A stretch of 64,000 nucleotides of DNA, taken from positions 62,001 to 126,000 of the forward strand of contig CAJAIA010000030.1 of NCBI GenBank assembly GCA_903939735.1, read 5' to 3'. The position numbers were made by a program, and so were the translations under genes. This DNA is from an uncultured Ignavibacteria bacterium. Its GTDB lineage: Bacteria; Bacteroidota; Ignavibacteria; Kapaibacteriales; Kapaibacteriaceae. The first letter of the stretch is position 1. Each line of letters starts with the position of its first letter. Positions 22,102 through 40,881 of this stretch are shown here, piece after piece. Below the pieces are notes generated by a model. That model ran no database searches. It was not told where the DNA came from and worked only from the letters and a program-made list of their open reading frames with translations.

Positions 22102-22116
22102 GGAGAAGCGTACTTC

Positions 22117-24059: not shown

Positions 24060-24915
24060 TTGGCCTCAAGATCGACACTCCGAGATGTGTCTTTACCGAT
24101 GCGATATAGTCTGAGAGCGGTCCGTCGAGAATCACCTTCTTCTTCGTTAACGAGGCATGCAGAAGTCGAGCTCGTTCACCATCACGCACAATCAAACCAG
24201 TATGCGCGTAGTCAAGCCCGGCCTTTGACGTTGCTATGGCAACAATATCACCCGTTTGTAACTGCGACTCAACATCGACGATCTTGTCACGCGGAATGAT
24301 GTATCGTGTTGTTGTAGCGAGTCGCCGCTCAATCGCTGCCATCGTTCCAACAAGTGACGAGTCGGTTTTCAGCGGCGGATAGTACTGCGGATGCTCCGAC
24401 ATAAACGAGACTCGCACGGGGAAGATCTCACCGCCGAGTTCCTGCGTTACATCTCGGACGACACCTTTCGCAATGTTGTTTTCGATCCACTCGGACGTAT
24501 AGTGCAGGCGCGAGGTATAACCATCAAGCTTGCCGTCACGATATCGTGTCATCGTCACTTGCGCGACAAATGCATCCCATGTTGGTGTGCCTAACTTACT
24601 GCATCGCGCCATTGCCAGAACATTCTCGAACAGCGTCACACAGTCGAGACCTGTGAGGTCCACGCGGCAGACTTCTGGACCCGCCCCCTCGAGAGTTCCC
24701 CCGACATACGGAGTACCAATCAGCAGCATGCCGATGTTCCCCATGAGGTCGCCAAGGGGCTGCCTGTTCCACTTCTCAGACGATACGCGCCGCATTGTCT
24801 GCGAGAAGATATATGAAGTGGTCGCCAACGGATCGGTATTCTTCGCACGACTCTTGCGAAGATTCTGAGCGAGTACCGGTGTTGCCAGCAGAATAAGAAA
24901 GGACCGTCGTAGCAT
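24034..24915 (-). CDS. DUF1460 (N-acetylmuramoyl-L-alanine amidase-like) secreted protein
   Basis: A 293-residue exported protein: a short signal (MLRRSFLILLATPVLAQ), then a DUF1460/NlpC-P60-like cysteine-peptidase fold. The signature is GTPYVGGTLEG followed by LTGLDCVTLFENVLAMA, where the Cys is the presumed nucleophile. A histidine-bearing segment (YAHTGLIVR) and HASLTKKKVILDGPLSDYI lie near the C-terminus. Family members act on peptidoglycan fragments in the periplasm or cell surface. The ATG is three bases after the aspS stop, so it is the distal gene of the aspS transcript. It ends in a 26-base antisense overlap with the lipoate ligase. Confidence 0.83.
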   Translation of the reverse strand: MLRRSFLILLATPVLAQNLRKSRAKNTDPLATTSYIFSQTMRRVSSEKWNRQPLGDLMGNIGMLLIGTPYVGGTLEGAGPEVCRVDLTGLDCVTLFENVLAMARCSKLGTPTWDAFVAQVTMTRYRDGKLDGYTSRLHYTSEWIENNIAKGVVRDVTQELGGEIFPVRVSFMSEHPQYYPPLKTDSSLVGTMAAIERRLATTTRYIIPRDKIVDVESQLQTGDIVAIATSKAGLDYAHTGLIVRDGERARLLHASLTKKKVILDGPLSDYIASVKTHLGVSILRPITPAVSGR

Positions 24916-24918
24916 AGC

Positions 24919-26688
24919 TTATCGTTGGGCTAATCCAATTCCAAGATCACGCAATTGATGTTCATCGACCGACGATGGACAAGCATCCATCAATGACAGT
25001 CCAGATGTCGTCTTCGGGAACGCAATCACGTCGCGGATATTATCGGTTCCGCAAAGAAGCATCGCCAGGCGATCGAATCCGAACGCAATACCTCCGTGCG
25101 GTGGCGCGCCATACGTGAGCGCGTTGAGGAGGAATCCGAACTTCTCCATCGCATCCTCTCGCGTGAAGCCCAGGAGATCAAACATCTGCTGCTGTACATC
25201 ACTTCGGTGAATACGAATAGATCCGCCGGCCGCTTCGTATCCGTTAATCACGAGATCGTGTGCAATCGCACGAGCATGTGTTGGATCGGTTCCCAGTAGC
25301 TCCACATCGTCCAACAACGGGGATGTAAACGGATGGTGACGAGCAATCCAGCGCTGTTCTTCCTCGCTATGTTCTAGCAGAGGAAACTCTGTAATCCAAT
25401 GGAACGAGAACTTCCCCGCACAAGCTTCAAGTATTCCCGTCCGACGTGCAACCTCCGTGCGCAGCGAACCAGCGATAATGCAGGCGCGCTCCCATTCGCC
25501 AGGAACAAACAGCATCAAATCGCCATCAACTGCAGCCATTGCCGATGCTAATGCCTGTGCTTCCTCGGGAGAGATCGCCTTGGCAAACGAGCCAGTTATC
25601 TCCGCGCCTTGAACTTTGAGCCACGGTAGACCCTTAGCGCCATACTTCTTTGCATGCTCTGTGAGTTCGTCAAGCTGTTTCCGAGAGAAGGAACCACAGC
25701 TCTTCGCATTGAGTGCCATCACAACGCCACCAGCGGCTATCGTATCTGTAAACACGCCAAACGATGTAGCAATGGCTGTCGCTGTCACGTTCGTCAAGCG
25801 AAGATCATAGCGAATGTCTGGTTTATCGGAGCCATACGTTTCAAGAGCTTCATGAAACGGCATGCGGAGGAATGGCGCAGCCACGTCGACATCAAGGATA
25901 TCCTTCCACACGAACGCGATAAATCGCTCAGTAAGCGCAAGGATATCTTCCTGCGTTACGAATGACATCTCGACGTCGATCTGCGTGAACTCAGGTTGTC
26001 GGTCAGCACGCAGGTCCTCGTCACGGAAGCACTTGACGATCTGCATGTACTTATCAAACCCGGACACCATAAGAAGTTGCTTGAACAGCTGTGGCGATTG
26101 CGGCAGCGCATAGAACTTGCCCTTGTTAATCCGACTCGGCACAAGGAAGTCGCGCGCGCCTTCAGGCGTCGATTTGGTGAGAACCGGCGTCTCTACTTCA
26201 ATGAAACCCTCTTGCTCAAAGAACTTGTGTGTGAGCTGATAGAGGCGGTTACGCACGATGAAATTCTGTTGCATCACCGGACGGCGAAGATCGAGATAGC
26301 GGTGTGTCAGTCGCAGTTCTTCATTCGTTCCAAGATCATCAACAATCTCGAACGGAGGCACCTCAGCAGCGTTGATAACACCGATTTCGTCAACAAGCAC
26401 CTCAACCAATCCGGTGGGGATTCGTGGGTTGGGGTTCTCACGCATGCGTATGGTTCCCTTGACCCAGAGAACATACTCTCCACGTACGTCGTGAATCGCC
26501 GCACCTAGATCAGGGGTGAATGATGAATCAACAACGACTTGTGCAATTCCCTCACGATCACGAAGATCGATGAAGATGATGCCGCCGTAATCCCGCCGGG
26601 CGTTCACCCAACCATTAAGCGTAACAGAAGTACCAACATGCTCCGGTCGGAGCAGTCCGCAGTGAATTGTGCGTTGTTGAAAGTGCAT
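24919..26688 (-). CDS. aspS: Aspartyl-tRNA synthetase
   Basis: A 589-residue bacterial-type class II synthetase. It has an N-terminal OB anticodon-binding domain (SVTLNGWVNARRDYGGIIFI), catalytic motif 2 with FRDEDLRADRQPEFTQID, the GAD insertion (about 290-420) typical of bacterial AspRS, and motif 3 GGIAFGFDRLAMLL. Whether it is discriminating (Asp only) or also charges tRNA-Asn cannot be settled by eye. A 49-base gap separates it from the upstream glycosyltransferase; no consensus promoter box is visible there. Confidence 0.95.
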   Translation of the reverse strand: MHFQQRTIHCGLLRPEHVGTSVTLNGWVNARRDYGGIIFIDLRDREGIAQVVVDSSFTPDLGAAIHDVRGEYVLWVKGTIRMRENPNPRIPTGLVEVLVDEIGVINAAEVPPFEIVDDLGTNEELRLTHRYLDLRRPVMQQNFIVRNRLYQLTHKFFEQEGFIEVETPVLTKSTPEGARDFLVPSRINKGKFYALPQSPQLFKQLLMVSGFDKYMQIVKCFRDEDLRADRQPEFTQIDVEMSFVTQEDILALTERFIAFVWKDILDVDVAAPFLRMPFHEALETYGSDKPDIRYDLRLTNVTATAIATSFGVFTDTIAAGGVVMALNAKSCGSFSRKQLDELTEHAKKYGAKGLPWLKVQGAEITGSFAKAISPEEAQALASAMAAVDGDLMLFVPGEWERACIIAGSLRTEVARRTGILEACAGKFSFHWITEFPLLEHSEEEQRWIARHHPFTSPLLDDVELLGTDPTHARAIAHDLVINGYEAAGGSIRIHRSDVQQQMFDLLGFTREDAMEKFGFLLNALTYGAPPHGGIAFGFDRLAMLLCGTDNIRDVIAFPKTTSGLSLMDACPSSVDEHQLRDLGIGLAQR

Positions 26689-26737
26689 GGACGTTGTCTA
26701 CGTGAAATCGTGTTGATGGTGGTTGAGCAGGGAGAAT

Positions 26738-27862
26738 TTACGAAGCACCAGGCTTCAAGCCCGTGATTTCGTGGATCATCTGTGTAAGATGTCGAACAAC
26801 GTCGCTGGTGGGAATTGCGGCCAGTGGTGCGTTGTGCGCAATACACGCCCAGTTTCGCGTTGCGTAAGGAAACCACGGAAGCAGCAGGCGATCATCCTGC
26901 GCAAACAGGACAACCGACGGAATGTTATAGGCAGCTGCCACATGGACCGCTGAGGTATCCGGCGTCAGGAACATATCGCAATGGCCGATCGCCTCTGCAA
27001 AGTCGCTGAATGACGGCCTTGGCGGTAGAACCCGAACGTCAAGTTGTTGTCCGATACGTTCAGCGATTTCTCGATGATGTGGTGCAGACATCACCACAAG
27101 TTCCAGTCGGCCCGCCGTGCGAGCCCCCTCGAATGATGAACAAACCTTTCGAAGCACTTCTGCAAGAAGCGATTCCGGGTACATACGATCAAGGTCGGAG
27201 CCCGATATGTTGATGCCGAGAATGTAGGACTGGTTAGGCCCAGCATGCGGATCGACGGAGGTGTGCGGTGTAACTCCTGGAAGCTTCGGACGCAATTCCT
27301 CGCGTGGAATGTCGAATCCGAGAGGCCATGTAACGCGCGCTATTCGCTCAACGATGTGCACCGCTGTTCTGTCGGCTAGTGGAACAACGTGGGTGTACAC
27401 TCGACGATTCTCTTTGTCAACTCCGATAGCAATCGGTGCACGTGACCCTTGCATCAACAAGGCAGACGTTGATGATGGATTGTCCATCAAATCAATGACT
27501 ACATCATACGCGCTGCGTCGGAGCTCACGGCGTAGCCGAACCAGATCAACGACTGACTTACGGAGGACATGAATACGATCGACGTATGGTTCAACGGCAT
27601 ACGCCACAGCTGTGTTATTTGTTGAGAGCACCATCCCAATCGTCGCATGAGGATAGCATGCGCGAATTGCAGCAATAATGGGCGTGCTTACGAGCACATC
27701 ACCGATACGATCTTGACGGAGCAAAAGGATCCGTGCATCGGGCTTAACAATGCTCTGTGCTGCAGGAGCTTCAACCACGAGAGGGTCTCCGCCACGCGTC
27801 ACCCACGTGTTATACCTGCGGCGCACAGCAAGTTCGAGACGCTTGATGAACGACTCTGCCAT
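26738..27862 (-). CDS. Glycosyltransferase family 9 (heptosyltransferase-like)
   Basis: A 374-residue GT-B enzyme. Hallmarks: ILLLRQDRIGDVLVSTPIIAAI near residues 45-65 and the C-terminal sugar-nucleotide site FLTPDTSAVHVAAAYNIPSVVLF. GT9 enzymes add heptose or related sugars to lipopolysaccharide core in the inner-membrane cytoplasmic leaflet. The start at 27862 is one base from the upstream stop; the frame extends to 27973 but only inside the upstream gene. It is paired with a GT4-type enzyme, suggesting a small glycan-assembly unit. The acceptor is unknown. Confidence 0.87.
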   Translation of the reverse strand: MAESFIKRLELAVRRRYNTWVTRGGDPLVVEAPAAQSIVKPDARILLLRQDRIGDVLVSTPIIAAIRACYPHATIGMVLSTNNTAVAYAVEPYVDRIHVLRKSVVDLVRLRRELRRSAYDVVIDLMDNPSSTSALLMQGSRAPIAIGVDKENRRVYTHVVPLADRTAVHIVERIARVTWPLGFDIPREELRPKLPGVTPHTSVDPHAGPNQSYILGINISGSDLDRMYPESLLAEVLRKVCSSFEGARTAGRLELVVMSAPHHREIAERIGQQLDVRVLPPRPSFSDFAEAIGHCDMFLTPDTSAVHVAAAYNIPSVVLFAQDDRLLLPWFPYATRNWACIAHNAPLAAIPTSDVVRHLTQMIHEITGLKPGAS

Positions 27863-27863
27863 G

Positions 27864-28997
27864 CTACCCCACGACCGTACGATACACGTCGTACGTTGCA
27901 CGTGCCGTGCTATCCCAGCTAAACATTGCTGACTGCTCCAGGCCTCGTTGGCGCATAGACGATCGAAGGTCATCGTCCTCTAGGCATCGCTTCATCGCTA
28001 CTGCGATCTCGTCGACGGATAACGGATCAACGTAGAGTGCTGCATCTCCGCCAACTTCGGGCAATGACGTAGTACCCGATGTAATCACAGGACATCCACA
28101 CTTCATCGCTTCGATTACAGGCAGTCCGAATCCCTCACCAAGCGTAGCGAAGACAAGTGCATGCGCAGATGAGAGGATCTGTACCATGTCCGGTGTCGAA
28201 ACATCCGTGAGCACCCGCAGAGATGGATCCTGGAACACCGCTGAGCGTTGCGCACGGAAGTGCGAGACCGCCTTATCACCACCAGCCATGATGAGGACAA
28301 AATCTACGTTTGACCGGAGTGCGTTCGGGAGCGACTGCCATGCTGCCAGCATACGATCAACATTCTTACGCCCATCAATGCGACCGATAAACAGCACGTA
28401 CGGACGCTGAAGTCCGTGGCGCTCACGCACATCAGCCTCCAGAGGAGTCGGCAAAAAGACCTCGCTGGCCGCTAGAGGCGTTACTGCAATTGGGCCCGAA
28501 TACCACGGGAAGTACTGGCGAATCGTTGATGCAACATAGGCGGATGGGCACATCACGGCCGATGTCGCGCGAAGCTGTCGAGCAATTCTCCGCGGAAACT
28601 TCGACTTCAACGTTCCTTCAATTCCCATCGACCCATACATCGGGAAGAGATCATGAATCGTCACGACGAGTGGTCGCTTGGTCGGAACAACCTTCTGCGG
28701 ACCAAGTATATGGACAAGATCAACATCGGATGCTGCGGCGTCCCATTGACGGCGCTGCACCATACGCATGACCCTGCGAAGGGGAGCTCCCAAAAGCCGT
28801 TCGTGCGAAAGCACATCACGCACATTCACATTGTGCGTTCCGAAATACGACGTGAGATCACGCCGTGAACCTTTCGCCGAAATGAGCGTAGCTTCAACAT
28901 GTTCATCAAGCGCCACGAGGGAGCGAATAAGCTCGCGTGAGTACCGTTCGATACCACTGCGACCCAATACGGCACTCGCATCGAAGGCTACATTCAT
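27864..28997 (-). CDS. Glycosyltransferase family 4 / group 1
   Basis: A 377-residue GT-B retaining glycosyltransferase. The N-terminal acceptor domain starts MNVAFDASAVLGRSGIERYS. The linker segment is PYVLFIGRIDGRKNVDRMLAAW, and the donor-site EX7E motif is in FATLGEGFGLPVIEAMKCGCP, followed by TSLPEVGGDAALYVDP. It probably builds surface polysaccharide or lipopolysaccharide together with the adjacent GT9 enzyme. A 34-base gap separates it from the upstream 96-aa gene, whose promoter box at 29348-29355 may drive the whole group. Confidence 0.9.
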   Translation of the reverse strand: MNVAFDASAVLGRSGIERYSRELIRSLVALDEHVEATLISAKGSRRDLTSYFGTHNVNVRDVLSHERLLGAPLRRVMRMVQRRQWDAAASDVDLVHILGPQKVVPTKRPLVVTIHDLFPMYGSMGIEGTLKSKFPRRIARQLRATSAVMCPSAYVASTIRQYFPWYSGPIAVTPLAASEVFLPTPLEADVRERHGLQRPYVLFIGRIDGRKNVDRMLAAWQSLPNALRSNVDFVLIMAGGDKAVSHFRAQRSAVFQDPSLRVLTDVSTPDMVQILSSAHALVFATLGEGFGLPVIEAMKCGCPVITSGTTSLPEVGGDAALYVDPLSVDEIAVAMKRCLEDDDLRSSMRQRGLEQSAMFSWDSTARATYDVYRTVVG

Positions 28998-29031
28998 GGC
29001 GACCCGACGAAATGATCAATTGGACCTGAGG

Positions 29032-29322
29032 TTAGACAACCTCTGTGGCTACTGCATACGTGACATTCGCAGCCAGAGCGTAGATCTTCTCGATCGCCGA
29101 AGCGATGGCAGCAGTTGTCTCAGGGTCGTCGGAGGCTTCGTATGCCTCGACAGACGGGTACACGTAGACTTCTTCGAAGTGATTGTGCTTGCCCTTTGTT
29201 TCATAGAGCGAAAACACTGTTTCCGATGCAGCATAGAATGCGCGCACCGCAGCAATCGCAGCCAGATACTCTGGACGCTTGCCATCAGGTATAGAGTACG
29301 ATACGCGGAACAGTACGTTCAT
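29032..29322 (-). CDS. 96-aa conserved-looking hypothetical, ferredoxin-like alpha/beta
   Basis: A small soluble protein (MNVLFRVSYSIPDGKRPEYL ... TVFSLYETKGKHNHFEEVYVYPSVEAYEASDD). The pattern of an initial strand, a helix, a strand and a charged EEVYVYPS strand, then a helix, resembles the dimeric alpha/beta-barrel (ABM/YciI-like) fold. That assignment is by pattern only, and no active-site residues can be named. It has its own perfect promoter box (29348-29355) and an AAGGA ribosome-binding site about 10 bases before the ATG, so it is very probably expressed. Confidence 0.7.
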   Translation of the reverse strand: MNVLFRVSYSIPDGKRPEYLAAIAAVRAFYAASETVFSLYETKGKHNHFEEVYVYPSVEAYEASDDPETTAAIASAIEKIYALAANVTYAVATEVV

Positions 29323-29347
29323 GCGGATGATCCTTGGTGAGTATCAA

Positions 29348-29355
29348 CAAAAATA
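29348..29355 (-). promoter_or_regulatory. -7 promoter box (TATTTTTG) before the 96-aa gene
   Basis: An exact TAnnTTTG match on the minus strand, 25 bases from the ATG at 29322 and 39 bases downstream of the pdhB stop. A weak GCC/GGC hairpin precedes it, but I do not call a terminator there. Confidence 0.55.
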
Positions 29356-29394
29356 CGCCAGACAACTCGGCTGCCGTATCGAACTTTTCAACAC

Positions 29395-30366
29395 TTAGAA
29401 GTTACAGAGTTCGCGGACGGCCGCTTGAATCTTCTCGGCGTTGGGCAACACCGCCTGTTCGAGCGTTGGCGCGAACGGCGTTGGACTGTCAAAGGCGGCA
29501 ACACGACGAACTGGAGCATCCAGGTATTGGAAGGCGATATCTGCAATTCGAGCAGCAATCTCGCCACCGAACCCGGCTGTAAGCACAGCTTCGTGTGCAA
29601 CAAGAGCACGTCCTGTTTTGCGGACGGACTCAAAGACGGTCTCTTGATCAAATGGAACGAGCGTCCGGATGTCGACAACTTCAATGTCGATCCCCTCGCT
29701 GGCGAGCGCTTCAGCAGCTGCCAGGGCCATATGCACCGCTGAACCGTAGGCAATGACGCTACAATGCGTACCCTTCCGCACAACCCGCGCCTGACCAAGC
29801 GGCACGATGTGCTCGCCTTCAGGAACCTCACCCTTGATCTTACGATACAGGCCTTTATGCTCAAAGAACATCACAGGATCGTTGTCGCGAATCGAGGCAA
29901 TCATCAGCCCCTTTGCATCATCTGGGAATGCTGGACAGACGACTTTGAGTCCGGTTGCATGAGCAAACCATGCTTCGGAATTACGGCTATGGAACGGATT
30001 TCCGCCGACGCCACCACCAGACGGACCGCGTACGACCATAGGGACTGGCAGACCCCATCGATAGGCCGTCGTGCCGGCGACCGTCACAACTTGGTTGAAC
30101 CCATTGGTGATGAAGTCCATGAATTGCATCTCGACAATCGGTCGCATACCATTAAGCGATGCGCCGATGGCCGAGCCGATAATCGCAGCCTCACTAATTG
30201 GTGCATCAATGATGCGCTTTGCACCGAATTCATCGAGGAAGCCCTTGGTCACTTTGAACGCGCCACCGTAGGTTCCGATGTCTTCACCAATCATGAACAC
30301 GTTATCATCACGACGCATTTCATGTCGCATTGCATCAGCAATTGCTTCGAGGTAGGTCATTTGCAT
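29395..30366 (-). CDS. pdhB: Pyruvate/2-oxo acid dehydrogenase E1 component, beta subunit
   Basis: A 323-residue E1-beta. It contains MIGEDIGTYGGAFKVTKGFLDEFG, DAPISEAAIIGSAIGASLNG, the MQFMDFITNGFNQVV segment and C-terminal VVDIRTLVPFDQETVFESVRKTGR. With the adjacent alpha subunit it forms the alpha2beta2 thiamine-diphosphate enzyme that decarboxylates a 2-oxo acid and acylates lipoyl-E2. Pyruvate is the likely substrate because a separate branched-chain-type fused E1 is present at 40882-43341. It lies 22 bases after pdhA in one transcript. Confidence 0.9.
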   Translation of the reverse strand: MQMTYLEAIADAMRHEMRRDDNVFMIGEDIGTYGGAFKVTKGFLDEFGAKRIIDAPISEAAIIGSAIGASLNGMRPIVEMQFMDFITNGFNQVVTVAGTTAYRWGLPVPMVVRGPSGGGVGGNPFHSRNSEAWFAHATGLKVVCPAFPDDAKGLMIASIRDNDPVMFFEHKGLYRKIKGEVPEGEHIVPLGQARVVRKGTHCSVIAYGSAVHMALAAAEALASEGIDIEVVDIRTLVPFDQETVFESVRKTGRALVAHEAVLTAGFGGEIAARIADIAFQYLDAPVRRVAAFDSPTPFAPTLEQAVLPNAEKIQAAVRELCNF

Positions 30367-30388
30367 GTGTTGTGTGCTTTCCTAACGA

Positions 30389-31405
30389 TCAGATCGACAT
30401 GAAGACGTTCTTGAATCCCTCTTCCGGAGCTGGCCATGCTCGCTCGAGTGCTCGATCGATAGAGGCAATCATCGTTGCGAGGGTTGTTTCCCGAAGCGCT
30501 TTGACCTCGTCTGCTGTCATGACACCATCGCGAACGATGCGCGTTATGTAGGTCTCCACAGGATCTTTCGTTGCCCACTCTTCTAAGAGGTCCTTCGGCA
30601 CATACGAGAAGTCATCATGCTCAGCATGGCCGCGCATGCGCATGGTGCGAGTTTCAATGAGCGACGGCCCCTCGCCGCGCCGAGCGCGCTCTACGGCCTC
30701 GAGGCATGTAGCATACACGAGCTCAACGTCTGTACCATCAATCGTGGTGCCGTACATGCCGTACCCCAGAGCTCGATCACTGAGTCGCTCACAGGCGAAC
30801 TCGAGTGAATTCGGCGTTGAGTAGGCGTACTGATTATTCTCGATGATGAGGATCAGCGGAATCTTGTGCACAGATGCGAAGTTGAGCGCTTCGTGTACTT
30901 CGCCTACCTGCGCTCCCCCGTCACCGATAAAGGTCAGAGAGACGGTTGTGATACCCCGCAACTGATCAGCAAGGCTGAATCCAGCTGCAACGGGAATCAT
31001 CGCACCGAGATGTGAAACATTTCCATAGATACGACGCGCAGGATCAGCATAGTGTCCGGTGCCATCGGTACCCCGCATCTGGCTCCCCTCACGGGCAAGG
31101 TGATTGACCATCAACTGATCAAGATCCTGTCCGAACACAAAGTGCGAACCGATGTTTCGGTGCATAGGGAACAACACATCGCGATCGCGATCCAGCGCAT
31201 AGGCACTCCCGACACTTACGGCCTCGTTACCGAGCTGAGAATATACACCGCCAAAGGCTTTGCCCTGGCGATATAGCCGAAGCATCGCGGTATCGAATTC
31301 GCGCGCCATGAGCATGTACGACAACAGCTCCTTGCGCTGATCAGCTGTCAGGAGCGATGTCGATTTCGAAGCTGGCTTGCCGGAAGAACGTTGTGTTGAC
31401 TTCAT
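30389..31405 (-). CDS. pdhA: Pyruvate dehydrogenase E1 component, alpha subunit
   Basis: A 338-residue E1-alpha. The thiamine-diphosphate motif is intact (FIGDGGAQVGEVHEALNFAS ... LIIENNQYAYSTP, GDG-x26-NN). The phosphorylation-loop-like region RTMRMRGHAEHDD is visible. The N-terminus before LLTADQRKELLSYM is basic and Ser/Thr/Lys-rich. I chose ATG 31405 rather than 31447, because the longer version would run across the promoter box at 31428-31435. Transcription probably starts about 16 bases upstream of this ATG. No E2 or E3 gene follows pdhB. Confidence 0.9.
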   Translation of the reverse strand: MKSTQRSSGKPASKSTSLLTADQRKELLSYMLMAREFDTAMLRLYRQGKAFGGVYSQLGNEAVSVGSAYALDRDRDVLFPMHRNIGSHFVFGQDLDQLMVNHLAREGSQMRGTDGTGHYADPARRIYGNVSHLGAMIPVAAGFSLADQLRGITTVSLTFIGDGGAQVGEVHEALNFASVHKIPLILIIENNQYAYSTPNSLEFACERLSDRALGYGMYGTTIDGTDVELVYATCLEAVERARRGEGPSLIETRTMRMRGHAEHDDFSYVPKDLLEEWATKDPVETYITRIVRDGVMTADEVKALRETTLATMIASIDRALERAWPAPEEGFKNVFMSI

Positions 31406-31427
31406 GTCCGTAGCGTGTAGTGGAGCA

Positions 31428-31435
31428 CAAAAATA
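31428..31435 (-). promoter_or_regulatory. -7 promoter box (TATTTTTG) of pdhAB, inside the cytochrome c terminator tail
   Basis: An exact TAnnTTTG match on the minus strand, 22 bases upstream of the pdhA ATG. It is located in the U-tract of the hairpin at 31439-31469, so the same bases could serve as terminator tail and promoter. Confidence 0.6.
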
Positions 31436-31438
31436 CAA

Positions 31439-31469
31439 CCGCCCCACCGAAGCTCGTTCGATGGGGCGG
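31439..31469 (-). terminator. Intrinsic terminator of the cytochrome c gene
   Basis: The minus strand folds into an 8-bp CCGCCCCA/TGGGGCGG stem, one T-G wobble, then CGAA/TTCG, with a CGAGC loop. TTGTATTTTTG follows. It lies 20 bases past the cytochrome c stop. Confidence 0.85.
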
Positions 31470-31489
31470 CAAATGTTTTCGACGGGTAC

Positions 31490-31906
31490 TTACTTCTTCT
31501 TGTGCTTCTTCACGTCAGCAACGGTAACAACCGGTCCCTTATTGCCCCATGAATTATACACATACGTCAGCACGCCAGCGATGTCCTCGTCAGTATACTT
31601 CTTCGGAAGCGGAGCCATTACACCGTTATACTCCTTGCCGTTGACTTTGAGCTTGCCACTCTTACCGTTGACCACTTCCTTGATGATTTGTGGCATTGGT
31701 GTCTTGGCGAGATAGTCACTCTTCGCAAGTGGTGGATAGACGGTTCCAAGTCCCTGTCCTGTCGCCTGGTGGCATGTCTTGCAATACTCGTTGTAAACTT
31801 TTTGTCCGCGCGCCATCGAAGCAGCCTTGTCCTGCGCTAAAACATCAGTTGCACCAACTGTGGTAAATGCGAGTGCAAGAACTAGTCCTACAATGTTCTT
31901 CATCAT
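31490..31906 (-). CDS. Small periplasmic class I cytochrome c
   Basis: A 138-residue exported monoheme cytochrome c. It has a signal peptide (MMKNIVGLVLALAFTTVG...LAQ), heme attachment CKTCH (Cys42-His46), a likely Met ligand in VMAPLPKK, and a lysine-rich tail (VKKHKKK). Being at the end of the cbb3 locus it is a plausible electron donor to the oxidase, whose CcoP carries only one heme. It has its own promoter box (31951-31958) and terminator, so it can be expressed separately from the oxidase operon. Two ATGs (31906 and 31903) are possible starts. Confidence 0.9.
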   Translation of the reverse strand: MMKNIVGLVLALAFTTVGATDVLAQDKAASMARGQKVYNEYCKTCHQATGQGLGTVYPPLAKSDYLAKTPMPQIIKEVVNGKSGKLKVNGKEYNGVMAPLPKKYTDEDIAGVLTYVYNSWGNKGPVVTVADVKKHKKK

Positions 31907-31950
31907 GAGTGTTGTACCGAAACAATGGTGTGAGAAGTGTTCAAGTGTGC

Positions 31951-31958
31951 CAAATATA
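31951..31958 (-). promoter_or_regulatory. -7 promoter box (TATATTTG) of the cytochrome c gene
   Basis: An exact TAnnTTTG match on the minus strand, 44 bases upstream of the first ATG. It directly abuts a short hairpin (31959-31972) that follows the SafE-family gene stop. Confidence 0.55.
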
Positions 31959-31972
31959 AGACCTTGCGGTCT
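31959..31972 (-). terminator. Short GNRA-loop hairpin after the SafE-family gene
   Basis: The minus strand reads AGACC-GCAA-GGTCT, a perfect 5-bp stem with a GCAA tetraloop, followed at once by TATATTTGG. It may be a weak intrinsic terminator for the cbb3 operon or a dyad operator for the adjoining promoter. Confidence 0.45.
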
Positions 31973-31978
31973 GAATTC

Positions 31979-32692
31979 TTATTGACCGTTGCAACATGAC
32001 GTGTGTTGGTGAGCTACGATTGAAGGGGGCGAGAGGTATGGTATTCCAAGCTCCATTCCTCGCAGAACTATCAGCACACCCATGGTGAACGCTAGCAGAG
32101 GGATGATAATTCCCAGGCGCGCTCCAAATCGTTGACGTAGTGCCGATGCACCGAAGGCGATGGCGAGCAATACGGGAGAGGTCCCGACCCCAAACCCAGC
32201 CATAAAGACAACACCTTGTGCGACGCCGCCACCCAACGCACTTCCTATCAACGCAGACGTTACAAGTCCGCACGGGAGAAGTCCGTTGACAACTCCAAGG
32301 AACACCATTGCGCGTTTAGGATGGCGTTGTGCCTGACGAATTGCAGCCGCACGGAGTGGTGCTGTATGCCGCTGCAACCATCTGGTCGGCAGTAGACTTT
32401 TGTGCCACAGCAGCTGTGCCAAAGCGATAGCAATCATGCTTACACCAGCCACGACCGAGAGAACACGACCATAGCCAGAGAGATCAAACACACTGGCACC
32501 GAGTCCCACAATAGCACCCATGACAGCATACACTGTTATACGCGCGATGGTATAGGTAGCCCTATTGACAAGTCGTTTACCGACAGATTCGTCTGCTGCC
32601 GGAAGTGCCATGACGAGTGGACCACACATGCCGACACAATGCATGCTGCCCGCTATGCCGAGCATGAGTCCACCAAGAGCGAGACTCATCAT
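31979..32692 (-). CDS. SafE/DsbD-like polytopic membrane protein of cbb3 loci
   Basis: A 237-residue membrane protein with about six predicted helices, of the sulfite exporter TauE/SafE (DsbD_2-like) group that recurs at the end of ccoGH clusters. Conserved features are MLGIAGSMHCVGMCGPLVMAL in helix 1, with two Cys and a His suited to metal binding, and VNGLLPCGLVTSALIG in the middle. The tail is HQHTSCCNGQ, which could also bind copper. A role in copper supply or oxidase maturation is inferred from location. The start overlaps the ccoH stop (ATGA). Confidence 0.82.
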   Translation of the reverse strand: MMSLALGGLMLGIAGSMHCVGMCGPLVMALPAADESVGKRLVNRATYTIARITVYAVMGAIVGLGASVFDLSGYGRVLSVVAGVSMIAIALAQLLWHKSLLPTRWLQRHTAPLRAAAIRQAQRHPKRAMVFLGVVNGLLPCGLVTSALIGSALGGGVAQGVVFMAGFGVGTSPVLLAIAFGASALRQRFGARLGIIIPLLAFTMGVLIVLRGMELGIPYLSPPSIVAHQHTSCCNGQ

Positions 32693-33126
32693 CGTAGCAT
32701 CATTGTTTGTTCAACTTCAAAACTCTCGCCCCTTGCACGCCAGCGTACAATCGCTCGCCAATGTCCAGGCGCTACATCAGCCAGCGAGTATCCGAGAGCG
32801 TTGTCTTCTCGAGCATGTATCGTCTCGTGTATATCCTGCGATGGATTATCCGGACGATAGAGGTGCAACGTGGCTGTAGTCGGCCTAGCATGGGGATCAT
32901 CTGCGACAACTCGTAGCATGCGTCCCTCAACCTGAATGTCGGCTCCCGCATCCTGGGCACGCTGACGCTCAAGCTTTGCTGTCGTCGTTCGCAAGGATTC
33001 CTGATAGTAATCCTCGCGCACAAGATCAACGCGCTGCGTCATGGCAAACGCAACAAATCCGAGTGTGGAGAGCGCAAATGCTCCGTACACCAGACTAATT
33101 CTCCAACCCCAATGAAATCGTGACAT
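32689..33126 (-). CDS. ccoH: FixH/CcoH family protein
   Basis: A 145-residue protein with one N-terminal membrane helix (WGWRISLVYGAFALSTLGFVAFAMT) and a periplasmic beta domain with the VREDYYQESLR segment. This matches FixH/CcoH, which is required for stable cbb3 assembly. It lies five bases after ccoG and overlaps the SafE-family gene, so the order ccoG-ccoH-safE is preserved. Sequence similarity is modest; the call rests on architecture plus locus. Confidence 0.82.
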   Translation of the reverse strand: MSRFHWGWRISLVYGAFALSTLGFVAFAMTQRVDLVREDYYQESLRTTTAKLERQRAQDAGADIQVEGRMLRVVADDPHARPTTATLHLYRPDNPSQDIHETIHAREDNALGYSLADVAPGHWRAIVRWRARGESFEVEQTMMLR

Positions 33127-33131
33127 AGTTG

Positions 33132-34583
33132 TTACTCCTGGGGACCTATAAACGTTGTTTCAACTGTCCGCAACACAGCGCCCCGTGATCGCACTTCGAG
33201 ACGAATCGTCTCGTCCCCTGTTCGCTGCGCCTGCGATGAACGAATGATGACTAATCGACCTTCCATCTTCTGCTCAGCCTTGACCATTGTTGGAAGGTTC
33301 AAGGGAGTAATCGAATAACCGGATGGTGATACAACAGCGATCTCATACGGGAGATCCTGCGATGTCTTGTTGATGATGTTGAGTGCATAGAAGTTCGCCG
33401 TGCCCTGTGCCATCGTTGTCCAGGTAGACTTCGGTTGACGAAGAAGGACAACATCAAGATCACTGCGCATTGCGAACAACACACCAACGACTGCAACGAA
33501 GACAACCCAAACAACGAGATATGCCTTGATACGACGTGTGAAAATGCGCGACGTGCCCTGCTCGATTGCATTGAGACTGCTGTACCGAATCAACCCCCTG
33601 TCAAGACCGACCTTGTCCATGACCTCGTCGCAAGCATCAATACAGGCTGTGCAATTCACACACTCGAGCTGTATACCGTTGCGGATGTCAATACCAGTTG
33701 GGCATACGGTGACACACTGGTGACAGTCAACACAGTCGCCCGCTCCGCGAGGCCGCGAAAAACCATGCTCGTCGGCGTGCTTTCGCGCATCGCTATCTGC
33801 CTTCGACCACTTTGTACGGCTCTCACCGCGCTTATTGTCGTACGTAACTGCAACGGTATTCTCATCAACGAGGGCCGACATATACCGTCCGTACGGACAG
33901 GCTATGAGACACGCCTGTTCACGGAATCGATAAAACACCATAAAGAACACAAAGGTGAAGAACAGAAGCCCACCAAAGAGTTCGAGATGCGCTGCCGGAC
34001 CATCGACGATGTACATGACCAGTCGATCACGAGAGATAACATACGAGAGGAAGACATTGGCGATGCCAAAGCTAATCGCAGCAAAGAGAAGCACCTTGAC
34101 ACCTGCGCGCCACCATCGATCCCACGTCCACGGCCCGTTGCGTCGAAGCGCTTGCTCTTTCGGTCCACCCTCAATCATCCACTCGATATTCCGAAAGACC
34201 ATCTCCATGAAGACAGTCTGCGGACACAACCAACCACACCAAATCCTTCCGAGTGTCGCTGTGAACAGCACAATCGTAATGACACCGGTAAGGAAGAGAA
34301 GAGCAATCAAGTAAAAGTCATTCGGCCAGAACGGCATTCCAAAGAGAACAAACTCACGTGTAATGATATTCAACAGGATAAACTGATGGCCGCCTACGGT
34401 TACAAAGGGGGCGAGCACCAGAAATGCGATCAGTACGATCGAAACAATCCGTCGCAACGTCGTATACCATCCACGAGGCATGCGAGCATAAATCCACCGA
34501 CGTCGTCCATCCGGTTGGATGCTCGCAAGTTCGGCACGATGCCGTTCGTGATCCTCTACGAGATCAAGGTCAATGATTGACAT
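33132..34583 (-). CDS. ccoG: cbb3 oxidase accessory ferredoxin-type protein CcoG
   Basis: A 483-residue inner-membrane protein of the FixG/RdxA family, linked to copper reduction for CuB assembly. It has several membrane helices in the N-terminal half, the WCGWLCPQTVFMEMVF motif, a cysteine-containing CLIACPYGRYMS, then two 4Fe-4S clusters (CVDCHQCVTVCPTGIDIRNG and CVNCTACIDACDEVM). A further helix and a C-terminal immunoglobulin-like domain follow. The start at 34583 falls four bases after the ccoP stop; earlier in-frame ATGs lie within ccoP. Confidence 0.93.
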   Translation of the reverse strand: MSIIDLDLVEDHERHRAELASIQPDGRRRWIYARMPRGWYTTLRRIVSIVLIAFLVLAPFVTVGGHQFILLNIITREFVLFGMPFWPNDFYLIALLFLTGVITIVLFTATLGRIWCGWLCPQTVFMEMVFRNIEWMIEGGPKEQALRRNGPWTWDRWWRAGVKVLLFAAISFGIANVFLSYVISRDRLVMYIVDGPAAHLELFGGLLFFTFVFFMVFYRFREQACLIACPYGRYMSALVDENTVAVTYDNKRGESRTKWSKADSDARKHADEHGFSRPRGAGDCVDCHQCVTVCPTGIDIRNGIQLECVNCTACIDACDEVMDKVGLDRGLIRYSSLNAIEQGTSRIFTRRIKAYLVVWVVFVAVVGVLFAMRSDLDVVLLRQPKSTWTTMAQGTANFYALNIINKTSQDLPYEIAVVSPSGYSITPLNLPTMVKAEQKMEGRLVIIRSSQAQRTGDETIRLEVRSRGAVLRTVETTFIGPQE

Positions 34584-34587
34584 ACGA

Positions 34588-35208
34588 CTACTCTGAAGAC
34601 TCGCCATGTTCGCAATGAACGTCGCGTCCTTCTTCGATCGGCTTTGGATCCGGAGGATGCGTACCATGCATTGCGATGATGTACGAGGCTACCTGAAGCA
34701 GTTGTTCATCGGAGAGCTTACTGCCACTTCCATACGGGAGCATACCCTTGTCCTGGTAACCTGTCGTGATGCTTGCTATGATCTCATCGACCGAACATCC
34801 GTGGATCCAATAATCATCTGTGAGGTTAGGTCCAACCTGACCACCCATATCTTCACGGTGGCAGGTATAGCAGATGTTCTCGTTCCCATTAAAGATTGCC
34901 TTACCCTTCGCAAGAGATTCAGCGTCGGTGAGAACAGCAATCGGACCGCTGGCCTTCTTCGGAGCATTTGCTCGTAGTGCTTCATTCTCAGCCACCTGCG
35001 CCTGATATTCCTGTTCTGATCCCCGCGGTCCATACCATAGGACGTTCCAATCGGGTCCAGTATAGACGTGGTAATAGTAGATGTAGATCACACTCATCAC
35101 GATCGTGAAGTAGAAGCCGTACAACCACCATCGTGGCAGGTTGTTATCATACTCACGAATACCATCTGCTTCGTGTTCAAGCAGTTGATCTTTTTCATGC
35201 TGTGCCAT
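34588..35208 (-). CDS. ccoP: cbb3 oxidase diheme-subunit homologue CcoP, here monoheme
   Basis: A 206-residue membrane-anchored cytochrome c: a short cytoplasmic N-terminus (DNNLPRWWLYGFYFTI is typical of CcoP), one helix at about 28-48, and a periplasmic heme domain with a single CYTCH (Cys113-His117). Classical proteobacterial CcoP has two CxxCH sites and about 300 residues. This one is shorter and carries only one. The C-terminal tail contains a DVHCEHGESSE segment that could bind metal. It lies between ccoQ and ccoG with gaps of four to five bases. Confidence 0.9.
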   Translation of the reverse strand: MAQHEKDQLLEHEADGIREYDNNLPRWWLYGFYFTIVMSVIYIYYYHVYTGPDWNVLWYGPRGSEQEYQAQVAENEALRANAPKKASGPIAVLTDAESLAKGKAIFNGNENICYTCHREDMGGQVGPNLTDDYWIHGCSVDEIIASITTGYQDKGMLPYGSGSKLSDEQLLQVASYIIAMHGTHPPDPKPIEEGRDVHCEHGESSE

Positions 35209-35213
35209 ACTGA

Positions 35214-35423
35214 TCAGCTCCGTTGCGATGGAATTGTGGATGAAGGATGTTGTTCCGTTGCTGCCCCATCATCAAGGATGTCTGCCGACAGCCGTTCGAG
35301 TCGATGTGTGTCGGCCTTGAAGTACCAGATAATCAAGGCTGCAAAAAACCCGAAGAAGAGAACGAGCGCAATGATCGGATAGAGCTCAATTCCAGGAATG
35401 CTTGAAAGAACGTTCTTATACAT
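35214..35423 (-). CDS. ccoQ: cbb3 oxidase small subunit CcoQ
   Basis: A 69-residue single-span protein (GIELYPIIALVLFFGFFAALIIWYF, then the polar KADTHRLERL) in the canonical position between ccoNO and ccoP. I chose the start at 35423, which follows a GGAGA ribosome-binding site; the frame extends 13 codons upstream into the end of ccoNO. The sequence fits CcoQ by size, topology and locus. It may stabilise the CcoP-CcoNO contact, as in other cbb3 enzymes. Confidence 0.85.
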   Translation of the reverse strand: MYKNVLSSIPGIELYPIIALVLFFGFFAALIIWYFKADTHRLERLSADILDDGAATEQHPSSTIPSQRS

Positions 35424-35437
35424 AGGTGTCTCCTTGG

Positions 35438-37633
35438 TTATTGCGTAACCTCGGCCTTCCACGCTTCGACCTTTGCTTTCGTTGCTGGGTCGATGTCGGT
35501 GCCAAGTTTGTGGAGGTATGCGATCAAGGCGATGATCTCCTTATTGTCCTGCACGTCCTTCATCCCGGCAGAGCGCAGTTTCTCAGCAATAAAGAATGCC
35601 TGTTTGCGAAGATCATCGACAGCCGTTGCTGCGTATCCATCGGGATATGGCGTGCCGAGTTTCTGAAGCGTGAGGATCTTACCCTCAGTATGTCGTGTAT
35701 CGAGATCACGCTCATACAGCCATGTGTATGCTGGCATGATTGAGTTCGGCGACGTCGACGTTGGCTGCATCATGTGCTTCCAGTGCCATGATGGCTCTGG
35801 ATACTTAACACCCACACGATGAAGGTCCGGCCCAGTGCGCTTTGAACCCCATTGAAATGGCCGATCATACACAAACTCGCCTGCCTTGGAGTACTCACCG
35901 TAGCGCTCCGTCTCACTGCGGAACGGACGTATCATCTGCGAGTGGCATGTGTAGCAGCCCTCACGCACATAGATGTCACGACCTTCGAGTTCGAGCGGCG
36001 AATACGGCGTTACGGACGCAATCGTTGGGATGTTCGCGTCAATCAATGCAGTTGGCACGTACTCAACGACTCCACCAATCAGAACTGCCACGAGCACATA
36101 TGCACTAAACTTTACCGGTGTTCCCTCAAGCAGACGATGCCATCCCTCTTTCGGCTCGTGGCTACGTTCGCCCATGCGGTTAACGACACGCACCTCTTCG
36201 TTTGCAAGGAGCGTTCCGCTCTTGGCTGTTTTATAGAGATTCCACACACCAACACATGCACCAATCAGATAGAGCGTTCCACCAATTGACCGCATGACAT
36301 ACATCGGTATCAACTGCGTCACAGTCTCGAGGAAGTTCGGATACTGCAGTGTTCCATCTGCCGCGAACTGCTTCCACATCAGCGACTGTGTGATTCCGCC
36401 CCAGTACATGGGGATGGCATACAATAGCACACCGAGAGTCATCAACCAGAAATGCCAGTTTGCAAGCGACAGCGAATACAGTTTCGTGCGATAGATACGT
36501 GGGAAGATGTAGTACATCATCGCAAAGGACAGACCACCATTCCACAGAAGTGCGCCAAGATGTACGTGACCAATGATGTAGTCTGTATAGTGCGTGAGTG
36601 CATTGATGTTCTTGAGTGACATCATCGGTCCTTCGAACGTCGACATACCATACGCCGTAATACCTACAACCATGAACTTGAGAACGGGATCGGTGCGCAC
36701 CTTATCCCATGCTCCGCGCAACGTGAGGAGTCCGTTCACCATCCCACCCCAGCTTGGAGCGATGAGCATGAAGCTGAACACAACACCCAGCGACTGCGCC
36801 CAATCTGGCAATGCGGTGTACAGTAGATGGTGAGGGCCAGCCCAGATGTATAGGAAGATGAGCGCCCAGAAGTGAATGATCGACAATCGATATGAGAATA
36901 CAGGACGATCAGCAGCCTTCGGTATGAAGTAGTACATGATTCCGAGGAACGGTGTCGTTAAGAAGAACGCAACCGCGTTATGTCCATACCACCACTGCAC
37001 GAGTGCATCTTGTACACCGGCATACATCGAGTAACTCTTGAGGAAGTGCACCGGCAATGCGAGCGAGTTCACGACATGTAGGAGCGCAACGGTTAGAAAC
37101 GTTGCGAGATAGAACCAGATGGCAACGTACATGTGGCGTTCCTTCCGACGAAGGATCGTGCCGATCATGTTCCATCCGAAGATCACCCATACGAGTGTGA
37201 TTGCGATGTCGATCGGCCACTCGAGCTCGGCATACTCTTTACTTGACGTAATGCCTAGTGGCAATGTCACAGCCGCAGCAACTATGATAAACTGCCAACC
37301 CCAAAAGTGGATCTTCGACAGCATATCACTGAACATGCGTGTCTTACAGAGTCGCTGCAAGGAGTAATAGACTCCGAGAAATATGGCATTACCCGCGAAT
37401 GCAAAGATCACTGCATTCGTATGCAATGGTCGCAAACGTCCGAACGAGAGGTAGTCGATTCCTCCAAGAAACTCGGGCCAATAGAACTTGATGGCCACGA
37501 GAACGCCGACCAAGAAGCCAACGAGCCCCCAAGCCGCAGAGGCGATGGCAAAGAGGCGGACAATGTTATTGTCGTACGAAACGGTTTCAATCCGTTCCGT
37601 CCGTTCAATGCCTGCCAATGGTGATGTATCCAT
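35438..37633 (-). CDS. ccoNO: cbb3 cytochrome oxidase CcoN-CcoO fusion
   Basis: A 731-residue fusion of the catalytic subunit (about 1-490) and the monoheme cytochrome c subunit (about 510-731). The CcoN part is polytopic and carries the heme/CuB histidines: RPLHTNAVIFAFAGN, WWYGHNAVAFFLTTPFLG, WAGPHHLLYTALPDWAQ and HYTDYIIGHVHLGALLWNG. The CcoO part has the membrane segment VLVAVLIGGVVEYVPTALI and heme motif CYTCH (Cys560-His564) within GRDIYVREGCYTCHSQMIRPF. The fusion is known in Bacteroidota and relatives. It reduces O2 to water with high affinity while pumping protons. It is preceded by ccoS and followed by ccoQ after 14 bases. Confidence 0.96.
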   Translation of the reverse strand: MDTSPLAGIERTERIETVSYDNNIVRLFAIASAAWGLVGFLVGVLVAIKFYWPEFLGGIDYLSFGRLRPLHTNAVIFAFAGNAIFLGVYYSLQRLCKTRMFSDMLSKIHFWGWQFIIVAAAVTLPLGITSSKEYAELEWPIDIAITLVWVIFGWNMIGTILRRKERHMYVAIWFYLATFLTVALLHVVNSLALPVHFLKSYSMYAGVQDALVQWWYGHNAVAFFLTTPFLGIMYYFIPKAADRPVFSYRLSIIHFWALIFLYIWAGPHHLLYTALPDWAQSLGVVFSFMLIAPSWGGMVNGLLTLRGAWDKVRTDPVLKFMVVGITAYGMSTFEGPMMSLKNINALTHYTDYIIGHVHLGALLWNGGLSFAMMYYIFPRIYRTKLYSLSLANWHFWLMTLGVLLYAIPMYWGGITQSLMWKQFAADGTLQYPNFLETVTQLIPMYVMRSIGGTLYLIGACVGVWNLYKTAKSGTLLANEEVRVVNRMGERSHEPKEGWHRLLEGTPVKFSAYVLVAVLIGGVVEYVPTALIDANIPTIASVTPYSPLELEGRDIYVREGCYTCHSQMIRPFRSETERYGEYSKAGEFVYDRPFQWGSKRTGPDLHRVGVKYPEPSWHWKHMMQPTSTSPNSIMPAYTWLYERDLDTRHTEGKILTLQKLGTPYPDGYAATAVDDLRKQAFFIAEKLRSAGMKDVQDNKEIIALIAYLHKLGTDIDPATKAKVEAWKAEVTQ

Positions 37634-37674
37634 ACTCCCGATCCGTGCAGTGTGAAGTGAGTAGAGTTGATTGC

Positions 37675-37824
37675 TTATTTGGGCTCGACATCGTCAAAGA
37701 GCATGCGAACAGCTGGAGTGCCGAGATCATCGTACTGACCACGTCGTGTGGCGAAGAGAAATGCGAGTAAGAAGCCCCCTGCTACGAGGATGCTGCAGAT
37801 AACGAGTAGCGGCATAACACTCAT
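37675..37824 (-). CDS. ccoS: cbb3 oxidase maturation protein CcoS
   Basis: A 49-residue gene in the gap between the P-type ATPase and ccoNO. It reads MSVMPLLVICSILVAGGFLL, then AFLFATRRGQYDDL, ending DDVEPK. A single membrane helix followed by GQYDDLxTPAxRMLFDD is the CcoS signature. The ATG overlaps the ccoI stop (ATGA) and is preceded by a strong GGAGGG ribosome-binding site. CcoS is needed for cofactor insertion into CcoN. It ends 41 bases before ccoNO. Confidence 0.92.
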   Translation of the reverse strand: MSVMPLLVICSILVAGGFLLAFLFATRRGQYDDLGTPAVRMLFDDVEPK

Positions 37825-40274
37825 GCGACCCTCCGTGCAAATAGATGAGCACCGCCAACGCTTATCCCGATGACGAGCAAGGAGCTTAACGGCATCATGA
37901 TGGCGGTAATGACGGGCGTTAGACGTCCTGTGAGTGCGATCGCAATGACGACCACATTATAGAGCATGGTAAACCAGAGTGCAACGTGAATCACATTGCG
38001 CAGTGAGTGCGCATAACGCAACAGATCGGCAATGTGACGGATGTGCGTGGCAGGGATGATCATGTCGCTTGCTGGCGCGAGCGTCGAAGTGTTGTCCGTG
38101 ACAGCGATTGAGACATCTGCAACGGCCATTGCAGACATGTCATTGAGTCCATCACCGATCATGAGCACGCGTGTTCGACGTCGCAGCTGTTCGAGGTGGT
38201 CGACCTTGTCTGAGGGGCTTGCACGGAATGTCATTGCATCCTGTTCAAACAATGCAGAAACGAGGTCGCGATCGCGATCGCTGTCACCAGTAAGCAACTC
38301 GCAGCGCTGACCCTGCTGACGCAAGGCAGACAAGAGTTCACCAACACCTTCCCTGAATTCAGCACGGGGCGTTACCTCCCCAACGATCTGCCCATCAACT
38401 GCAACCATTGTGGCATGACGATGCATTTCCTTTGGGTCTGCGATTCCATACTCAGCGAGGAAGTGCATTGATCCTATATGCACACGATGTCCGTGAGCTA
38501 TACCTGTAATCCCACGACCAGCAACCTCCGTGACATCACCAACGTCCTTTGCACATGACACACCTGAAGCTAGTCCTCGACTGATTGGATGGGTACTGTG
38601 CGATGCAACGGACACAACAGCGGCATACTCGTCATGTGTAAGCTCGTCCCCATGAAAAACCACGTTGGGCTGTGATGACGTAAGCGTGCCAGTCTTGTCA
38701 AACACAACGGCGCCGATATCATCCAAAGCCGCCAGAACATCAATGTTCTTAGCGTAGATCTTTCGACGACCTAGAATGCCCATCGCAGTGCCGAGTGTAA
38801 TAGGTGCTGCAAGCGTCAGTGCGCACGGACATGCGATAATCACAACGGCGGTAAACACACTGAGAGCTACAGGGATATCAGGGAGCCATAGGACGAAGCC
38901 TACCGCTGCAATCGTAATCACTGCCCAGATAAACAGACGTCCAAACCGATCGCTCAACGCGCGATATCCATCACGTGACGTCCGCGCAGAGGAACGCTCC
39001 CACAGAGAAGCGAGATATCCCTGTGATACTGGCCTTGTCGCTGTCAGTTGGAGGGCTGTTCCTACCACCTTACCACCTGCATAGACCATTGCACCACGCG
39101 AACACTCAACAGGGACACTCTCTCCCGTGACAAACGCGTAGTCGATGTACCCAACCGGACTGAGGAGAACAGCATCTGCCGGGATCACTTCACCATTGCG
39201 AATTGCTATGGTGTCGCCCACCCGTAGCGCGTCAATAGCCACGACTTCTTCACCGAGGGGCGTGTCTCGCCGCACTGACAGCGGAAAGAACGAACGCACG
39301 GTGCGATCGAACGTAACAGCATCGAATGCTTTCTGCTGGAACACGCGGCCAATCAAGAGAAAGAACACAAGTCCGGCAAACGAGTCAAGGAAACCTTCAC
39401 TCGCGCCGGTAGCTATATCGGCGATACTTCGAACGAAGAGCGTTGTGATACCAAGTGCGACAGGAATATCAAGATTGACTGTTCCCTGCCGTAGAGCTGC
39501 CCAGGCCGAACGAAGCCACGGTGATGCACTGTAGACATACACAGGGATACTTAGTCCGATGCTCAACCATGTGAACACGGCAACGAGCGTCGGGTCGATC
39601 GTCGTGGTGCCGTTGCGATGCGCTAAATACTGAGCGATGCTAAACATCATGATGTTGCCCATCGCAAAACCAGCAACTCCGAGACGCAGATAGAGTCCGC
39701 GCGTTGCCTCTTTGCGTTGCTGCTCACGACTCAGTTCATTTCCCTCAACATGGATAAGGGGCTCGTATCCAAATGATCGAAGAAGTTCGGCGACATCACG
39801 AACACGTAAGGCACCCGGAACGACATCCACAACAATGGTCTTACGCTGAAGATCAACCTCGGCAGAGATCAATCCTGATTGAATGTGCGGCAGTCGCTCA
39901 AGCAGCCAGACACAGCTCGCGCAGTGCATTGTGGGGAGCGCGAATCGCATGCGTATACGGCGTTGATCAGCAAATTCTACGAACCGTGCGGCAACCGTAG
40001 GATCATCGAGTATTGCATAGGCCTGTCGGTCTCGATGGGACTGCTGCTGTGAAACTCCTGTTTGTACGCCATCCTGATAGTACCCGCAGAGGTTGTGTTC
40101 CTGGAGCAGTTCGTAGACGCTGGCACATCCAGTGCAACAGAATACGTGGTCGCTGAGAGTTATCGAAGCGTCAGCGCATACGTCACCGCAATGTGCGCAG
40201 TGCAGATGGTGGTCGATCGTATGCGTGTTCTGCTGGTTCACGTTACCGTGGAATAATGTCGTTGGATACGACAA
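37821..40274 (-). CDS. ccoI: Copper-transporting P1B-type ATPase CcoI/FixI
   Basis: An 817-residue copper-export ATPase supplying CuB to cbb3 oxidase. From the N-terminus: a cysteine/histidine-rich metal-binding domain (CAHCGDVC ... FCCTGCASVYELL), an HMA-like domain with MHCASCVW, membrane helices, the phosphatase motif VTGESVPVEC, the ion-binding CPC in IACPCALTLAAP, phosphorylation DKTGTLT and GDGLNDMSA. The frame opens at TTG 40274; the only other early start is GTG 40241 (giving MNQQNTHTIDHHLHC), and I cannot choose firmly. The upstream gap carries a cluster of GTCA half-sites. ccoS follows with an ATGA overlap. Confidence 0.93.
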   Translation of the reverse strand: MSYPTTLFHGNVNQQNTHTIDHHLHCAHCGDVCADASITLSDHVFCCTGCASVYELLQEHNLCGYYQDGVQTGVSQQQSHRDRQAYAILDDPTVAARFVEFADQRRIRMRFALPTMHCASCVWLLERLPHIQSGLISAEVDLQRKTIVVDVVPGALRVRDVAELLRSFGYEPLIHVEGNELSREQQRKEATRGLYLRLGVAGFAMGNIMMFSIAQYLAHRNGTTTIDPTLVAVFTWLSIGLSIPVYVYSASPWLRSAWAALRQGTVNLDIPVALGITTLFVRSIADIATGASEGFLDSFAGLVFFLLIGRVFQQKAFDAVTFDRTVRSFFPLSVRRDTPLGEEVVAIDALRVGDTIAIRNGEVIPADAVLLSPVGYIDYAFVTGESVPVECSRGAMVYAGGKVVGTALQLTATRPVSQGYLASLWERSSARTSRDGYRALSDRFGRLFIWAVITIAAVGFVLWLPDIPVALSVFTAVVIIACPCALTLAAPITLGTAMGILGRRKIYAKNIDVLAALDDIGAVVFDKTGTLTSSQPNVVFHGDELTHDEYAAVVSVASHSTHPISRGLASGVSCAKDVGDVTEVAGRGITGIAHGHRVHIGSMHFLAEYGIADPKEMHRHATMVAVDGQIVGEVTPRAEFREGVGELLSALRQQGQRCELLTGDSDRDRDLVSALFEQDAMTFRASPSDKVDHLEQLRRRTRVLMIGDGLNDMSAMAVADVSIAVTDNTSTLAPASDMIIPATHIRHIADLLRYAHSLRNVIHVALWFTMLYNVVVIAIALTGRLTPVITAIMMPLSSLLVIGISVGGAHLFARRVA

Positions 40275-40282
40275 AACTCCAC

Positions 40283-40315
40283 GTCAGCACGTCAGTATTT
40301 CATGACGTTTGTCAT
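40283..40315. promoter_or_regulatory. Cluster of four GTCA half-sites upstream of ccoI
   Basis: In the short gap between the Rrf2 gene and ccoI the plus strand has GTCA (40283-40286), GTCA (40291-40294), TGAC (40303-40306) and GTCA (40311-40314). These form the perfect dyads GTCA-N8-TGAC and ATGAC-GTTT-GTCAT. This is a candidate operator for a dimeric regulator such as the adjacent Rrf2 protein. Confidence 0.4.
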
Positions 40316-40779: not shown

Positions 40780-40817
40780 GGTGCGGCCTCGAATGCGGGT
40801 TTCAGACTCTTATAGAC

Positions 40818-40825: not shown

Positions 40826-40881
40826 CTGCCGTTCGCATGACGCCGTGGGTGTGCGGCATCGTATGAACTACGTACGTCCTC

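Follow-up and report, generated by a model that had tools for sequence, protein, structure and literature searches.

A terminator tail that probably doubles as the -7 promoter box of pdhAB in a Kapabacteria genome

A short T-rich segment between a cytochrome c gene and the pyruvate dehydrogenase genes pdhAB of a Kapabacteria genome probably does two jobs, as it would end the cytochrome c transcript and, as a -7 promoter box, start the pdhAB transcript, so that both signals form one compact terminator-promoter junction. The window, i.e. the whole stretch of 64,000 nucleotides which was analysed, belongs to a genome of 2.47 Mb. Its minus strand carries, in this order, genes for a fused ccoNO, ccoP, ccoG, fixH, a DsbD_2 protein, the cytochrome c, pdhA and pdhB. 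CcoN and CcoO are joined in one 731-aa protein (35438-37633, minus strand; PF00115 plus PF02433). The junction comprises the following features:

31490-31906, minus strand: cytochrome c gene (138 aa) upstream of the hairpin, with matches to PF00034 and PF13442
31438-31470, minus strand: terminator hairpin of 14 pairs, assigned from its fold and from pairing kept with other sequence in relatives
31428-31437, minus strand: T-rich terminator tail TGTATTTTTG, assigned from a terminator scan and direct reading
31428-31435, minus strand: TATTTTTG, putative -7 promoter box of pdhA (TAnnTTTG), assigned from enrichment, consensus and conservation
31423, minus strand: predicted transcription start of pdhA, based on flavobacterial box placement, which puts the G of the box at -5 and leaves an 18-nt leader
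30389-31405, minus strand: pdhA, pyruvate dehydrogenase E1 alpha (338 aa; PF00676, E1_dh)
29395-30366, minus strand: pdhB, E1 beta (323 aa; PF02779 and PF02780)

On the minus strand, 84 nt separate the cytochrome c stop (31490) from the pdhA ATG (31405-31403). This gap holds both parts of a terminator, namely a GC-rich hairpin downstream of the stop codon and, directly 3′ of its stem, the tail TGTATTTTTG with T at 7 of 10 positions. The hairpin, which the original prediction had placed at 31469-31439, was recovered at 31470-31438. Its fold of -26.7 kcal/mol (z -5.4) was matched by 0 of 200 shuffles, and it has the most pairs among the 21 terminator-like sites within positions 22000-41000. Direct reading of the sequence likewise bore out the predicted TAnnTTTG match in the tail, TATTTTTG, 22 nt before the pdhA ATG, and a promoter scan at the junction found no E. 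coli-type promoter near pdhA. The probability of a chance TAnnTTTG was 0.014 anywhere in the shuffled 84-nt gap and 0.024 in the shuffled 20-nt tail. That the composition of the tail alone yields the box in 2.4% of shuffles speaks for a terminator without promoter function, in which the match would result from T-richness and pdhAB would be expressed by read-through from cytochrome c or from an unseen promoter; in view of the comparative data given below we regard this explanation as unlikely.

Judged from its distribution in the genome, TAnnTTTG is the promoter box of this lineage. In same-strand gaps of at least 30 nt, forward and reverse matches occurred in ratios of 30:1 in the 791 kb sampled from the window's genome and of 14:1 in both G010 and G017 (G numbers denote genomes), compared with shuffle expectations on the coding strand of 3.0, 2.9 and 2.1, respectively; two further genomes gave 11:0 and 21:2, all with genes called by a simple codon-usage script and no standard annotator, so that starts and a few strands will be wrong. 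The extended -7 element over 163 sites upstream of genes reads roughly Y-C-G-TAnnTTTG-Y-R. When the same sites were searched for a -33 TTTG element, no spacing reached 5 of 163, and at pdhA direct reading revealed no TTG at a distance of 17-23 nt 5′ of the box. In a leave-one-out scoring, the pdhA box reaches the 66th percentile among promoter-like boxes and the 93rd among boxes inside genes; at position -2 it has T in place of the consensus C. Just one sigma factor with region 3 was found in the genome, a 311-aa frame with regions 1.2, 2, 3 and 4 and no Pfam match to region 1.1.

These properties resemble the Bacteroidota primary-sigma promoters of the sigma-ABfr type (-33 TTTG / -7 TAnnTTTG) with regard to the -7 TAnnTTTG upstream of genes and to region 1.1, as the Bacteroidota primary sigma is described without this region in PMC6847099. 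They differ in that -33 enrichment is absent here and C-G precedes the box; in F. johnsoniae RNA-seq data, a -33 element was not identifiable according to PMC7366714. Moreover, G occupies 26% of the first and 10% of the second n positions of the box, whereas F. johnsoniae reportedly has virtually none (PMC6847099). A literature search did not retrieve a promoter study of this lineage. A separate observation concerns sites close to genes: in three genome samples, TAnnTTTG lies 3-6 nt before the start codon at 43 of 163 sites, including 21 at exactly 4 nt. This sharp peak suggests that leaderless mRNAs may be common in Kapabacteria; for F. psychrophilum, a share of 5.5% is given in PMC9723704.

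Conservation of the junction was analysed in 23 family genomes. Cytochrome c is present in 22 of them, and pdhA follows it within the fetched stretch in 14 of these 22. A hairpin lies between both genes in 11 of the 14 (those of G001 and G008 were detected by RNAfold and missed by the hairpin finder), and TAnnTTTG occurs between hairpin and pdhA in all 11. According to coordinates and alignment, the box starts 0-5 nt past the hairpin in 9 of these 11 genomes; it is detached but kept 12 nt past the hairpin in G017 and 43 nt past it in G013, where it is located at +114. Of the remaining three genomes, G012 has its pdhA start 689 nt away, separated by other sequence, and G014 and G019 have a pdhA match that starts 16 and 4 nt past the cytochrome c stop, respectively. 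At this junction, terminator and promoter element have bases in common, and the latter is conserved along with the former. A lone instance could be luck; as the box is conserved in relatives, a chance match is unlikely.

Alignment of nine junctions, i.e. eight with pdhA plus that of G002, revealed GTAnnTTTG as the longest conserved block, while the hairpin arms vary; G005, a 99% copy of G000, and the detached junctions of G013 and G017 were omitted, and the aligned genomes are relatives, so that these observations are not independent. Within the block, substitutions were found only at nn, with TAGTTTTG in G003 and TATGTTTG in G016. Both break up the T run without affecting the promoter consensus, and therefore selection on a -7 box fits better than selection on a U-tract. 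No other result speaks as strongly for retention of the tail as a -7 box as these confined substitutions. They also argue against a terminator without promoter function, since they spare T, A and TTTG, and so does the persistence of the box apart from the hairpin in G013 and G017. The original prediction of a tail used both as terminator and as pdhAB promoter thus gains good support for its dual use from comparison, namely from composition, strand polarity and conservation. A function of the hairpin as operator was rejected, because its sequence varies while pairing is kept.

The same comparison bears on the converse explanation of a promoter without terminator, in which the hairpin would protect the cytochrome c mRNA at its 3′ end or slightly reduce read-through, with partial co-transcription of both units. 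In line with it, the GC stem in G001, G006, G008 and G009 is followed by TTGCGTAT or TGGCGTAT, which make a poor U-tract, and the short distances between the cytochrome c stop and the pdhA match in G014 and G019 render co-transcription plausible there. Against it stand the T-rich tail of the window, with an A-rich 5′ side that pairs with the tail in a fold reaching the end of the box, and the retention of the hairpin despite its changed sequence; we consider this explanation very unlikely. In G014 (locus L152), a hairpin and a subsequent T run are found 24-55 nt past the cytochrome c stop, within the first pdhA codons, and may represent an attenuator.

G002 has no pdhA and nevertheless keeps the hairpin and the TATTTTTG tail, as would be expected if the tail were a terminator only; a second TATTTTTG precedes the next small gene. 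The box is therefore not strictly tied to pdhA. G002 could have lost pdhAB recently and left the boundary behind; one alternative reading is a role of the box in the tail apart from pdhA. In G004 and G010, neither hairpin nor pdhA is found at this place, and the box is present before the small gene. In the window, a 96-aa protein without Pfam match is encoded downstream of pdhB (29032-29322, minus strand), and in G002, G004 and G010, all without pdhA, a frame with a similar N-terminus (compared by eye) directly follows cytochrome c. Within one genus (L139, L140 and L145 versus L135), the presence of pdhAB downstream of cytochrome c and ahead of the small gene is patchy. This distribution is like that of a cassette which may be gained or lost together with its own promoter.

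Genome-wide, terminator-like hairpins were defined by a ΔG of -14 or lower and at least 5 T in 12 nt, and boxes were counted from -8 to +12 nt of the hairpin end. In three genomes, a box lay near the terminator end in 7 of the 38 same-strand and 1 of the 51 convergent gaps; in G012 and G014, taken by themselves as replication, the counts were 1 of 15 and 0 of 8, respectively, which is not significant (p = 1). The pooled raw counts of five genome samples were 8 of 53 same-strand versus 1 of 59 convergent gaps (p = 0.013). The sole convergent match is the cytochrome c-pdhA junction of G017, where an antisense frame had been taken as a gene. Moving it to the same-strand class in the counts of the first three genomes would give 8 of 39 versus 0 of 50 (p = 0.0009), and because this reclassification is post hoc, we prefer the raw pooled value. 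Convergent terminator-like gaps are also T-rich, yet their single box is this miscalled junction, which is a further argument against T-richness as the source of the pdhA box.

Conversely, among boxes that follow a same-strand gene, 7 of 74 carry a hairpin at the upstream edge, compared with 0 of 86 boxes that follow a divergent gene (p = 0.004). In the 10 gaps with both terminator and box, these lay near each other in 7 versus 4.9 expected under uniform placement, which is not significant (p = 0.08). True overlap of box and tail, with an offset of -1, 0 or +1, was found in 3 of 53 gaps, namely at pdhA and at two sites in G017; in the remaining same-strand matches the box lies directly 3′ of the tail. 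The proposed genome-wide enrichment of terminators that end in a promoter box is consequently only weakly supported: boxes near terminators are enriched in the pooled counts, while in-tail boxes are few and replication was not significant. Recurrent junctions, with names assigned by eye from translations, are rplT-pheS (G000, G010) and HU-pyrB (G000, G012, G014), the latter lying one base beyond the preset limit in G014. A different arrangement was observed in G000 (contig C1, gap 47609-47656), where a hairpin contains a TATTTTTG box located 27 nt ahead of a start codon.

According to the dual-use reading, which we favour, the GC-rich hairpin together with UGUAUUUUUG would release the cytochrome c transcript at the RNA level. 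At the DNA level, TATTTTTG would act as the -7 box, bound by the primary sigma factor of the lineage and melted for the start of pdhAB near 31423, with a predicted leader some 18 nt long; the flavobacterial placement of the box from -12 to -5 is that described in PMC9723704 and PMC6847099. Such an overlap is possible because no -33 element is seen in the promoters of the lineage, so that a hairpin can be encoded 5′ of the -7 box, at the place of a -33. If polymerase pauses in the tail, it would cover the box and might thereby occlude it; equally, released polymerase could restart at the box, for which conditions would be favourable here. The latter leads to a stronger claim, namely that polymerase terminating in the tail is handed to the overlapping box, and that pdhAB output follows cytochrome c output. 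E. coli polymerase can slide after termination and restart at nearby promoters in vitro (PMC6978380), but this effect had yet to be observed in vivo according to the same report, and the conserved, apparently regulated promoter of cytochrome c itself separates the two units; we judge coupling by hand-over quite unlikely.

This cytochrome c promoter contains the box TATATTTG (31958-31951, minus strand), which abuts an inverted repeat AGAC-N6-GTCT, the whole element covering 31972-31951. By eye, a similar (A/G)GAC...TC(T/C) followed by ATATTTG was found upstream of cytochrome c in 12 of 22 family genomes; the exact pattern is unique in the genome. The repeat looks like a putative regulator site in the cytochrome c promoter. 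Since the small gene after pdhB also has its own box (29355-29348, minus strand), the cluster resembles a row of separate units. Separate boxes would fit insulation better than coupling of respiration and pyruvate oxidation, and insulation of two units in little space is the plainest and likely function of the junction.

At the E. coli frd-ampC locus, the ampC attenuator serves as the frd terminator. As in the Kapabacteria junction, the end signals of one unit there share DNA with the start signals of the next, but at frd-ampC the upstream gene contains the promoter, which the terminator follows, whereas here the -7 box is located in the terminator tail itself. The ampC promoter is described as containing part of frdD and as having an attenuator (PMC11796351). 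The post-termination reinitiation reported in PMC6978380 likewise involves a promoter beside an intrinsic terminator, in that case in vitro and with E. coli polymerase. Among titles and abstracts on overlapping terminators and promoters, no described case of the present arrangement was found. The junction looks like a real, compact local arrangement, a variant of terminator-promoter spacing, and not like a new kind of system.

As such, it provides a conserved and testable case of one short DNA element serving as terminator tail and promoter box, and if hand-over of polymerase between neighbouring units occurs in cells, such overlaps are a place to look for it. For annotation, the extended -7 consensus, the missing -33 element and the box peak some 4 nt ahead of start codons are useful in their own right. 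A T run would become a -7 box by few changes, with TA before and G after it. One can speculate, although we hold this wider view to be rather improbable, that in Kapabacteria, where an extended -7 box is apparently sufficient, terminator tails are ready-made promoters and polymerase can end and start on the same ten bases; if this were true, gene order could be rearranged without losing the boundaries between units.
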